From Caulobacteraceae bacterium (lineage in GTDB: Bacteria; Pseudomonadota; Alphaproteobacteria; Caulobacterales; Caulobacteraceae), in assembly GCA_947447115.1 (NCBI GenBank), contig CANFKD010000010.1:1-35710 (forward strand): a stretch of 35,710 bases of DNA, read 5' to 3'. Made by a program: the position numbers and the translations under genes. Shown piece by piece: positions 16,550-34,748 of this stretch; the first letter of the stretch is position 1; each line of letters starts with the position of its first letter. The notes beneath the pieces were generated by a model. That model ran no database searches and was not told where the DNA came from. It worked only from the letters and a program-made list of their open reading frames with translations.

Positions 16550-17053
16550 ATGATCACGATCCGATTGGCAACAGTCGATGACGCCGCCGCTCTGGAATCG
16601 GTGGGTCGCGAGACCTTTACGGAGACCTTTGGCCATCTCTATCCGCCCATGGACCTGAAGGCCTTTTTGGACAGCGCCCATCTGGCCGAAAACTATCGCG
16701 CTTGGATCGCGTCGGAAGCTTACGGCGTATGGATCGCCGAGCAGGACGGTCAAGCTGTCGGCTATGCCGTCGCAGGGACCTGCGACCTGCCCCATCCAGA
16801 CGTGACCCCGGCCTGCGGCGAGCTGAAACGCATCTATCTGCTCAACCGCGCGCAGAACGGTGGGGCTGGCACCCGCCTCATGACCGCCTGTTTCGATTGG
16901 CTCGTAAAGCCGGGTCGTCGCCTTTGGATCGGTGTCTGGTCGGAGAACTATGGTGCCCAGCGGCTCTATGGGCGCCACGGCTTTACCAAGGTCGGCGAAT
17001 ATGAATTCCCCGTCGGTGAAGTCCGGGACCGAGAATTCATCCTCAGCCGGTAA
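16550..17053 (+). CDS. GNAT-family N-acetyltransferase
   Basis: The 167-residue protein has the GNAT pattern: ITIRLATVDDAAALESVGRETFTETFGHLY at the N-terminus, a central GELKRIYLLNRAQNGGAGTRLMTACFDWL acetyl-CoA block, and WIGVWSENYGAQRLYGRHGFTKVGEYEFPVG near the end. It resembles PaiA-like or general small-molecule acetyltransferases. The gene starts 7 bases after the dxs stop and is probably co-transcribed, but the substrate is unknown. Confidence 0.9.
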   Translation: MITIRLATVDDAAALESVGRETFTETFGHLYPPMDLKAFLDSAHLAENYRAWIASEAYGVWIAEQDGQAVGYAVAGTCDLPHPDVTPACGELKRIYLLNRAQNGGAGTRLMTACFDWLVKPGRRLWIGVWSENYGAQRLYGRHGFTKVGEYEFPVGEVRDREFILSR

Positions 17054-17121
17054 TCTTATTTAAAGTAGTGATGATAATTATATAACCCAAAGTCACAGTT
17101 AGAGATTTACACCCCCGTTTT

Positions 17122-17135
17122 GTGTCACGTAACAC
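17122..17135. promoter_or_regulatory. Near-palindrome upstream of the recombinase-like gene
   Basis: GTGTCACGTAACAC is a 14-base palindrome with one mismatched pair. It lies in an AT-rich 170-base gap (17054-17224), about 90 bases before the start of the recombinase-like HTH protein, where an operator could stand. No regulator is identified. Confidence 0.25.
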
Positions 17136-17224
17136 TGTCTTGGCTGAACAACAGCCATCAGGGTCGCGACGCCGTAACATCGGTAGACTTGCGACCTGAC
17201 GATCATCATCGGGGCTCGATCGCT

Positions 17225-17779
17225 ATGCTGCGCATTGGTTATATCTGTGACATCAACCTTGTCTCAAACAGGGGCACCGACGAACAGTCATCCATCCCCC
17301 CTCAAATGGAGGCGGATCGCACCGCGCTGGTTGAAGCAGGCTGCAGGGTCATACGTGTTGAGACCGCACGGCCACCGCGCGCGGCCTGCGGTGTCGTCCT
17401 ACAGTCCATCGTAGATTTTGCCGAACAGGGCGACGAGATCGTGGTCGCCCGTTTAAACCAGATCGGCAGTTCCAGCGGGGCAGTGCTTGGCCTCTTACAG
17501 ACCTTGAAGACGCGCGGGATTGGTCTGCGCTTGCTGGACCCTGGCCTGAACCGGCCCGGGTTGGTCGACGATGGGTTCATCCATACGTTGGAAATGATCT
17601 GTAGCCTTGATGGCCGCCTCGGCAATCGCCAGATGGCAAGTCACGGAACCGGTCGTCGCAACCGTGTCACCACCGACGACATCCGCTCACTTCAGGCGCG
17701 TGGCATGGGCGCTGGACAGATCGCCGAAACCCTCCACGTCTCGCGCATGACGATCTGGCGTAAGCTGAAAGAGGCCTAA
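17225..17779 (+). CDS. Serine-recombinase-like protein with lost catalytic residues and C-terminal HTH
   Basis: The 184-residue protein has the length and layout of Tn3/gamma-delta resolvases: an N-terminal domain beginning MLRIGYICDI, a PPQMEADRTALVEAGC helix, EIVVARLNQIGSS, and a C-terminal HTH (VTTDDIRSLQARGMGAGQIAETLHVSRMTIWRKL, residues 148-181). Aligned to gamma-delta resolvase (GYARVS), the catalytic Ser10 is Ile10 and Arg8 is Cys8; Arg45 falls on Ala, and the LDRLGR motif is LNQIGS (Asp67 to Asn, Arg68 to Gln, Arg71 to Ser). It cannot plausibly cut DNA but its HTH looks intact, so a DNA-binding regulator is likely. The ATG at 17225 matches family starts; an upstream TTG at 17120 is less likely. 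Confidence 0.85.
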   Translation: MLRIGYICDINLVSNRGTDEQSSIPPQMEADRTALVEAGCRVIRVETARPPRAACGVVLQSIVDFAEQGDEIVVARLNQIGSSSGAVLGLLQTLKTRGIGLRLLDPGLNRPGLVDDGFIHTLEMICSLDGRLGNRQMASHGTGRRNRVTTDDIRSLQARGMGAGQIAETLHVSRMTIWRKLKEA

Positions 17780-17907: not shown

Positions 17908-19086
17908 ATGTTCATGCGCTTCTTTTCCGAGCTTCGTCAGGCCCGCGTCCCGGTCTCCCTCAAAGAGTATCTGATGCTGATGGAGGCCATGGACAAGCAG
18001 GTCATCGACCGCACGGTCGAGGATTTCTACTTCCTGTCCCGTTCGGCCTTGGTCAAGGACGAGAAGAACCTCGACAAGTTCGACCGGATCTTTGGCAGCG
18101 TCTTTAAGGGCCTGGAAAAGATCGACGACGACCATACGTCTGAAATTCCCTCCGAGTGGTTGCGGCTCCTGACTGAAAAGTTCCTCACCGATGAGGAAAA
18201 GGCCGAGATCGAAGCCCTCGGCGGCTTTGATAAGCTGATGGAGACCCTTCAGGAGCGCCTGAAGGAGCAGAAAGAGCGCCATGAGGGCGGTAATAAGTGG
18301 ATCGGCACGGGCGGCACCTCGCCCTTTGGTGCCAATGGCTACAATCCCGAAGGGGTCCGCATTGGCCAAGACAAGGGCCGTCACGGACGCGCCGTAAAGG
18401 TCTGGGACAAGCGTGAATATAAGAACCTCGACGACACGGTCGAGCTTGGCACCCGCAACATCAAGGTCGCCCTGCGCCGCCTGCGCAAATTTGCCCGCCA
18501 AGGCGCTCCGGACGAGCTAGACCTGCACGGCACCATCAAGGAAACCTCGAACAAGGGCTATCTGGATCTGGTCATGCGGCCCGAGCGTCGCAACACCATC
18601 AAGCTTTTGGTGTTCTTCGACATTGGCGGCTCGATGGACAGCCACATCAAGCTGGTCGAAGAGCTGTTCAGCGCCGCGCGGACCGAGTTTAAGAACCTCG
18701 AATTCTTCTATTTCCACAACTGCCTGTACGAGTCCGTTTGGAAGGATAACAACCGCCGTCACACCGAGAAGATCAACACCTGGGACGTGCTCCACAAATA
18801 TGGTCACGACTACAAGGTCATCTTTGTCGGCGACGCGACCATGAGCCCCTACGAGATCACCTATCCCGGCGGCTCGGTGGAACATTGGAACGAAGAGCCC
18901 GGTGCCATGTGGGTTGACCGCGTCACCCAGATCTATCCGAGCACCGTCTGGCTGAACCCGACCGCTGAACGCCATTGGGACTATACGCCCTCGGTCGGTG
19001 TCATGAAGCAGTTGGTCAGCGACCGGATGTTCCCCCTGACCATTGAGGGGCTGGACAAGGCCATGAAGGAACTGGTTCGGGGATGA
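17908..19086 (+). CDS. CoxE-type VWA domain protein
   Basis: The 392-residue protein belongs to the CoxE-like VWA family, whose members usually work with MoxR AAA+ ATPases in metalloenzyme maturation or complex remodelling. The N-terminal half is helical and charged (FMRFFSELRQARVPVSLKEYLMLMEAM), the middle contains RRLRKFARQGAPDELDLHGTIKETSNKGYLDL, and the VWA domain has a metal site D238-I-G-G-S242-M instead of DxSxS. LNPTAERHWDYTPSV and a final IEGLDKAMKELVRG complete it. No moxR gene is adjacent. The stop overlaps the TetR start by four bases (ATGA), so the two are co-translated. Confidence 0.9.
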   Translation: MFMRFFSELRQARVPVSLKEYLMLMEAMDKQVIDRTVEDFYFLSRSALVKDEKNLDKFDRIFGSVFKGLEKIDDDHTSEIPSEWLRLLTEKFLTDEEKAEIEALGGFDKLMETLQERLKEQKERHEGGNKWIGTGGTSPFGANGYNPEGVRIGQDKGRHGRAVKVWDKREYKNLDDTVELGTRNIKVALRRLRKFARQGAPDELDLHGTIKETSNKGYLDLVMRPERRNTIKLLVFFDIGGSMDSHIKLVEELFSAARTEFKNLEFFYFHNCLYESVWKDNNRRHTEKINTWDVLHKYGHDYKVIFVGDATMSPYEITYPGGSVEHWNEEPGAMWVDRVTQIYPSTVWLNPTAERHWDYTPSVGVMKQLVSDRMFPLTIEGLDKAMKELVRG

Positions 19087-19811: not shown

Positions 19812-19920
19812 AACAAGACCCCCTTCGGCCCTTCGGGCCACTTCCCCCAGAGGGGGAAGATTTGCGCATCTAAGATCTTCCCCCTCTGGGGGAAGTACCG
19901 GCGAAGCCGGGGTAGGGGGT
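19812..19920. repeat. Palindromic intergenic repeat, family 1 copy A
   Basis: Four hairpins follow one another: GGCCCTTCGGGCC-like, CTTCCCCC-AGA-GGGGGAAG (19841-19859), CTTCCCCC-TCT-GGGGGAAG (19877-19895) and CCGGC-GAA-GCCGG (19898-19910). The two middle hairpins are themselves inverted copies around ATTTGCGCATCTAAGAT. Near-identical copies lie at 25533-25639, 33685-33792 and, reversed, 34632-34748. The gap 19782-20154 otherwise holds a second repeat and the Fur-like box. Confidence 0.9.
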
Positions 19921-25532: not shown

Positions 25533-25639
25533 AACAAGGCCCCCTTCGGCCCTTCGGGCCACTTCCCCCAAAGGGGGAAGATTTGCGCGCCTAGATCTTC
25601 CCCCTTTGGGGGAAGTACCGGCGAAGCCGGGGTAGGGGG
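25533..25639. repeat. Palindromic intergenic repeat, family 1 copy B
   Basis: This copy shares the ACAAGGCCCCCTTCGGCCC start and the two CTTCCCCC/GGGGGAAG hairpins, with compensating changes at the loops (AAA/TTT instead of AGA/TCT), then CCGGC-GAA-GCCGG and GTAGGGGG. It lies between the convergent DUF3253 and acyl-CoA dehydrogenase genes and ends one base before the dehydrogenase stop codon, so it may stop transcription for both. Confidence 0.9.
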
Positions 25640-33684: not shown

Positions 33685-33792
33685 AACAAGACCCCCTTTG
33701 ATGCTTCGCATCGCTTCCCCCAGAAGGGGAAGATCTTGGAACGGTAAATCTTCCCCCTTTGGGGGAAGTCCCCGCGAAGCGGGGGTAGGGGG
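33685..33792. repeat. Palindromic intergenic repeat, family 1 copy C
   Basis: A diverged copy: the first hairpin is GATGCTTCGCATC instead of GGCCCTTCGGGCC, and the left inner hairpin is CTTCCCCCAGAAGGGGAAG, but the overall order is kept. The stems change while pairing is kept, which suggests selection on RNA or DNA structure. Lies 8 bases after the GNAT stop. Confidence 0.85.
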
Positions 33793-34631: not shown

Positions 34632-34748
34632 AAACAAGGCCCCCTACCCCGGCTTCGCCGGTACTTCCCCCAGAGGGGGAAGATTTAAGGATCCAAGATC
34701 TTCCCCCTCTGGGGGAAGTGGCCAGAAGGGCCGAAGGGGGCCTTGTTT
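34632..34748. repeat. Full-length family 1 repeat, copy D, with terminal inverted repeats
   Basis: This reversed copy starts AAACAAGGCCCCC (34632-34644) and ends GGGGGCCTTGTTT (34736-34748), perfect 13-base terminal inverted repeats, and is flanked by TCTT on both sides (34628-34631, 34749-34752). It is therefore the copy that best defines the element ends; the other copies lack one of these ends. The flanking repeat may be a target duplication. Confidence 0.8.

Follow-up and report, generated by a model that had tools for sequence, protein, structure and literature searches.

A DNA-cutting enzyme has probably become a gene switch, and has probably ceased to be a recombinase, in some 80 related species, among them the Caulobacteraceae bacterium from which the 35,710-nucleotide stretch analysed here (the window) derives. 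We interpret the gene as a domesticated pseudo-resolvase that would have lost recombination, kept its fold and helix–turn–helix (HTH) and become a local autoregulator at half-sites in its own leader, a reading to which we give a probability of about 0.62. That the protein binds DNA, forms dimers and regulates its own gene, and in which direction, are all things that we infer. If true, the case would show how an enzyme of a selfish element is converted into a gene switch of its host, and intermediate stages can still be seen (Arg8 is present in most orthologues and gone in the window's genus). The small family, fixed locus and predicted site make the idea cheap to test.

Protein fold and catalytic residues

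The pseudo-resolvase coding sequence (17,225–17,779, forward strand) is an uninterrupted frame of 184 amino acids, annotated from open reading frames, Pfam, phmmer, Foldseek and an orthologue search. The protein matched gamma-delta resolvase (1GDT) at E = 2.7e-10 with phmmer and the phage DNA-invertase family phrog_125 at 2.1e-7, while its Pfam HTH_7 match exceeded the cut-off and its Resolvase N-domain match (4.2e-4) fell slightly under it. An AlphaFold (AF2) model, with a mean pLDDT of 78.5, had Tn3/gamma-delta resolvase–DNA complexes as its top Foldseek matches in the PDB (E = 1e-9). Together, Pfam, phmmer, AF2 and Foldseek indicate that both the Resolvase N-domain fold and the C-terminal HTH are present, as in small serine recombinases. 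These results bear out the original prediction, made from the sequence alone, of a resolvase homologue with an intact frame and a retained HTH, which had proposed modelling against 1GDT as a check. A phage source was also considered and was rejected, with 0 matches among 50,697 phage records.

The degenerate serine-recombinase catalytic domain comprises residues 1–136 (17,225–17,632, forward strand), as delimited by the AF2 model, Foldseek and residue mapping, and includes the dimerisation helix E (residues 116–136), after which the model has a low-confidence linker. Relative to gamma-delta resolvase, the alignment lacks about 11 residues where the E-helix arm enters the minor groove, and the arm residues R119, R121 and E124 are gone in the window protein. 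The HTH (HTH_7; residues 144–184; 17,654–17,776, forward strand) is unchanged at the amino-acid level in the four closest sequences (dN = 0), and its recognition helix reads SRMTIWR (residues 173–179; 17,741–17,761, forward strand), a motif conserved as SRMT[VI]WR in 76/76 orthologues.

We then examined catalytic residues on a family alignment of these 76 orthologues, which come from two Caulobacteraceae genera. The full six-residue catalytic set, retained as RSRDRR by the closest active relatives, was kept by none of them (0/76), and the most that any retained was four, in a single protein. An orthologue with an intact Ser/Arg set, which the original prediction had named as counter-evidence, is absent from this set. 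The window protein has lost all six residues as predicted (R8 to C8, S10 to I10, R45 to G56, D67 to N78, R68 to Q79 and R71 to S82), except that R45 is replaced by Gly on the family alignment and not by Ala; the alignment is gappy in this region, and Arg is absent under either reading. Retention among the orthologues varied by position, with Arg8 kept in 66/76, Asp67 in 26/76, R68 in 15 and R71 in 5, and with R45 gone in 75/76. The Ser10 position is Arg in 57 proteins and Ser in 1, and is variable across the family (R, I, Q, V, T, G and others); most larger-genus orthologues have a GYVRLRD motif where GYARVS would stand. Two positions, Tyr6 and Asp59, do not vary. The expectation that the same six positions would be lost in all orthologues thus held only in part: none is intact, but loss of all six is peculiar to the window's genus. 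Arg8 is gone in 7/7 members of that genus and still present in 66/76 orthologues, which suggests that it was lost there at a later stage. Strand-cleavage chemistry has probably been lost, judging from the missing catalytic residues.

Conservation, selection and genomic context

All six congeneric genomes searched contained the gene, at 98–46% identity, and a profile search of 390 genomes of the family revealed a second, larger genus, probably Phenylobacterium, with the same gene. Orthologues were present in 7/7 genomes of the window's genus and 74/100 of the larger genus, their proteins having diverged to about 38% identity, and no comparably strong match was found in any other genus among 337 genomes drawn across the class. 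A maximum-likelihood tree placed a long branch (1.04, support 100/100) between active and inactive relatives, and the window's genus formed a long branch amid larger-genus sequences, whose branching order is mostly poorly supported. Within the window's genus, dN/dS was 0.08–0.21 over dS values of 0.10–1.02, far from the value near 1 that the original prediction associated with decay. The gene is not decaying and is under purifying selection. It is nevertheless dispensable, because roughly one in four larger-genus genomes is without it (23/100) and a few copies are broken: G360 (L127) has a frameshift, G313 (L173) an internal deletion and G315 an in-frame stop. In G348, also of the larger genus, only a contig-edge fragment of the gene is present.

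The gene occupies a single shared locus in both genera. In the window it lies between a GNAT acetyltransferase gene (16,550–17,053, forward strand) and a VWA/CoxE-like gene (17,908–19,086, forward strand), both assigned by Pfam and synteny, and congeners share the order dxs, GNAT, pseudo-resolvase, VWA/CoxE and TetR where contigs extend that far. The GNAT gene is a near-constant neighbour: almost every orthologue has it upstream in the same orientation, mostly 175–185 bp from the start codon. An empty site, with GNAT followed directly by VWA, was found in outgroup genera whose names (Caulobacter-like and Brevundimonas-like) we infer, and also in most of the gene-less larger-genus members checked. 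No mobile-element gene was recognised adjoining the pseudo-resolvase in the window or in close orthologues, and a Tn3-type neighbouring transposase is absent, both genera having GNAT and VWA/CoxE genes as the neighbours. At the level of gene neighbours, this agrees with the earlier statement that the gene lies apart from transposon remnants. Elsewhere in the window, a dispersed intergenic repeat of about 108 bp with internal stems occurs in four copies and in both orientations (19,812–19,919, 25,533–25,639, 33,685–33,792 and 34,635–34,747).

Upstream elements and half-sites

In the larger genus, the gene is preceded by an element of about 65 bp. Anchoring 68 leaders on TTAA revealed a common block, ATTGC-N3-GA[TA]TTAAC, some 82 bp upstream of the start codon, followed by CTTTGACG or CTTGGCG and then TTTGSGAC; the compact form is ATTGC-N3-GAWTTAAC...CTTGGC/CTTTGAC...TTTGSGAC, and the core can also be written ATTGC-N3-GATTTAAC. 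A scan of larger-genus genomes with a sequence-only profile gave a single strong site, immediately ahead of the gene, in every genome where the gene is intact (74/74, a count that takes in G315, whose copy has the in-frame stop) and none in the gene-less genomes (0/23). The element was retained at the two other broken copies (G313 and G360). At loci that lack GNAT (L116, L118 and L122), the element is still present beside the gene, which rules it out as part of the end of the GNAT gene. A broad regulon defined by the element was likewise rejected, since it is single-copy per genome and the next matches are at noise level. RNAalifold predicted no consensus base pairs in the larger-genus element, which fits a DNA element, and the window region had no Rfam match; an RNA leader or riboswitch was set aside on these grounds. 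The element could be a promoter, or the site of another factor that co-occurs as part of the same gene.

The window's leader, from the GNAT stop codon to the pseudo-resolvase start (17,054–17,224, forward strand), occupies the place of this conserved control region but has diverged from the larger-genus element, with TAAC...CTTGGC common to both and in register. CTTGGC (17,139–17,144, forward strand), shared in the alignment, may be −35-like. The leader contains three TGTKAC candidate half-sites in a single orientation, all on the reverse strand: GTCACA (TGTGAC) at 17,092–17,097 and CGTAACA (TGTTACG) at both 17,128–17,134 and 17,173–17,179. It has no canonical three-dyad res. The three six-mers compare with 0.28 expected (P = 0.001 by count) and the top-two PWM score had P = 0.005, values to be read with the motif having been sought only after CGTAACA was noticed in the leader. 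The CGTAACA-N38-CGTAACA pair is unique in the window's genome.

The original prediction had proposed a near-palindrome in the leader, GTGTCACGTAACAC (17,122–17,135), as the protein's own operator. This sequence exists, is the sole copy in the genome within 2 mismatches and overlaps one candidate half-site, but it is conserved only at the genus level, being identical in 3/5 of the closest genomes and changed at the outer bases in the other two, and was rejected as a family-wide operator. The three TGTKAC half-sites, the middle one of which lies inside the palindrome, appear to be the better-supported candidate sites. Two other repeats were observed in leaders of this genus. Just past CTTGGC, an inverted repeat, GGCTG-AACAA-CAGCC (17,142–17,156), is conserved in five congeners, two of which have an A-to-G change that would preserve U–G pairing. 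Separately, the leaders of two more distant congeners, G006 (L031, 5,750–5,912) and G004 (L032, 2,080–2,244), carry a perfect dyad, AACACT-TTAAAT-AGTGTT.

The half-site motif goes with a particular recognition helix, as far as upstream sequences indicate. Active relatives with an SRMTVYR helix had TGTKAC upstream of their own genes in 6/6 cases, with 2–4 copies each, versus 1/26 active resolvases of the same family that have a different helix. Ten plasmid relatives, fetched as an independent check, followed the same pattern: all nine with SRMTVYR had 1–6 copies, and the one with GRASVYR had none. Pooled, TGTKAC was upstream of 15/15 active SRMTVYR resolvases versus 1/27 with other helices, although many of these sequences are related and not independent. 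No TGTKAC was found upstream of four inactive SRMTVWR paralogues (L134–L136 and L208). It is also absent from the conserved block of the larger genus, despite the same recognition helix as in the window's genus, and TGTGAC-like sites near −160 occur there in a subset only. Either specificity has drifted in the larger genus, or its conserved block serves as a promoter and the operator is separate.

Weighing of explanations

One alternative is a different non-catalytic role. The protein might bind DNA across a wider regulon or act architecturally, bridging sites as a dimer or tetramer, with the leader element a mere promoter; the fold would permit bridging, S10A resolvase still synapses sites (PMC4499144), and the element has a −35-like CTTGGC/CTTTGAC. 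We consider this unlikely: genomes of the larger genus have one copy of the extended element, the window's genome has one copy of the paired half-sites, and no second strong site was found. We regard as improbable an auxiliary subunit that would support an active resolvase in trans, such as an architectural partner on the res sites of plasmids or transposons. Active resolvases with a near-identical SRMTVYR helix and TGTKAC sites do occur on alphaproteobacterial plasmids and in Caulobacteraceae, but the window's own genome (84% complete) yielded no other Resolvase-family match, and the locus is fixed and chromosomal, with no mobile gene recognised alongside.

Slow decay of a relic, its frame surviving by chance or after a recent loss of function, could account for the broken copies and for the larger-genus genomes that lack the gene. 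It is very improbable in view of 76 intact orthologues, all sharing an invariant recognition helix, and a closest set with no HTH amino-acid change, and the dN/dS values largely refute it. Least probable of all is that the protein is still an active recombinase, its active site rearranged around a new nucleophile: GYVRLRD is a new conserved motif in most larger-genus orthologues, yet position 10 is variable, R45, R68, R71 and R119 have mostly disappeared, and helix E has a shortened arm.

The domesticated-regulator reading gains support from the constant association of element and gene in the larger genus and from the retention of the recognition helix. Under this reading, a small Tn3-type serine resolvase gene with a res-like upstream region would have been fixed between the GNAT and VWA/CoxE-like genes in the ancestor of the two genera. 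The protein would then have lost the chemistry of strand cleavage and, from helix E, most of the half that forms the DNA arm, with the dimerising catalytic fold and HTH retained. At present, the protein would act as a local DNA-binding regulator on repeated half-sites in its own leader, controlling its own transcription and perhaps also, in the window's genus, the downstream VWA gene. The simplest route would be that the recombination job was lost and the resolvase's existing job of binding res was kept.

Comparison with known systems

Inactive serine recombinases and resolvase autorepression are already known; a bacterial single-locus pseudo-resolvase family with a gene-linked element was not found in the literature searched. 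The sole parallel found for an inactive serine recombinase, in a search with most subscription papers outside it, was a poxvirus annotation: vaccinia virus F16, a nucleolus-targeted protein of a eukaryotic virus, is annotated as a predicted inactive serine recombinase (PMC11980589). Like the window protein, F16 appears to be a homologue retained without catalysis, with a relation seen only at the superfamily level, and the available part of that paper states no regulator function for it. Transcription factors recruited from prokaryotic mobile-element genes are covered by a 2022 review, which in its available part describes other routes and not one from resolvase to regulator (PMC8987985).

Other inactive resolvase homologues in Caulobacteraceae (L134–L136, L137, L138, L035, L037/L038 and L208) also lack the catalytic set and have open frames, but they lie at different loci with no common upstream element seen, and L037 has no resolvase HTH match in Pfam. 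These separate groups suggest repeated inactivation. About 110 bp upstream of one inactive paralogue we observed a palindrome, CGTGTCCCGGACACG, common to L134 and L135, the outer flanks of which have otherwise diverged. More tentatively, and at slightly less than even odds, a serine-recombinase lineage may have turned into dedicated transcription factors, comprising vertically inherited pseudo-resolvases and parallel inactive paralogues, with operators derived from ancestral res.

The active SRMTVYR proteins, annotated as 'recombinase family protein' (for example, L036, L228 and L229), occur on alphaproteobacterial plasmids and Caulobacteraceae chromosomes. The plasmid set shares 37–42% identity with a larger-genus orthologue, a near-identical recognition helix and upstream TGTKAC. 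Unlike the inactive family, these proteins keep RSRDRR where checked on the alignment, many are plasmid-borne, and their helix has Tyr where the inactive family has Trp. Finally, TnpR of Tn3 binds res, a site that includes the tnpR promoter, and represses its own transcription (PMC7157771). In contrast to Tn3/gamma-delta TnpR, the pseudo-resolvase is without the catalytic residues, has a shortened E-helix arm and sits at one conserved chromosomal locus with no transposase or transposon among its gene neighbours; it resembles TnpR in its fold, domain order and resolvase HTH, and in having a putative site region immediately ahead of its gene.
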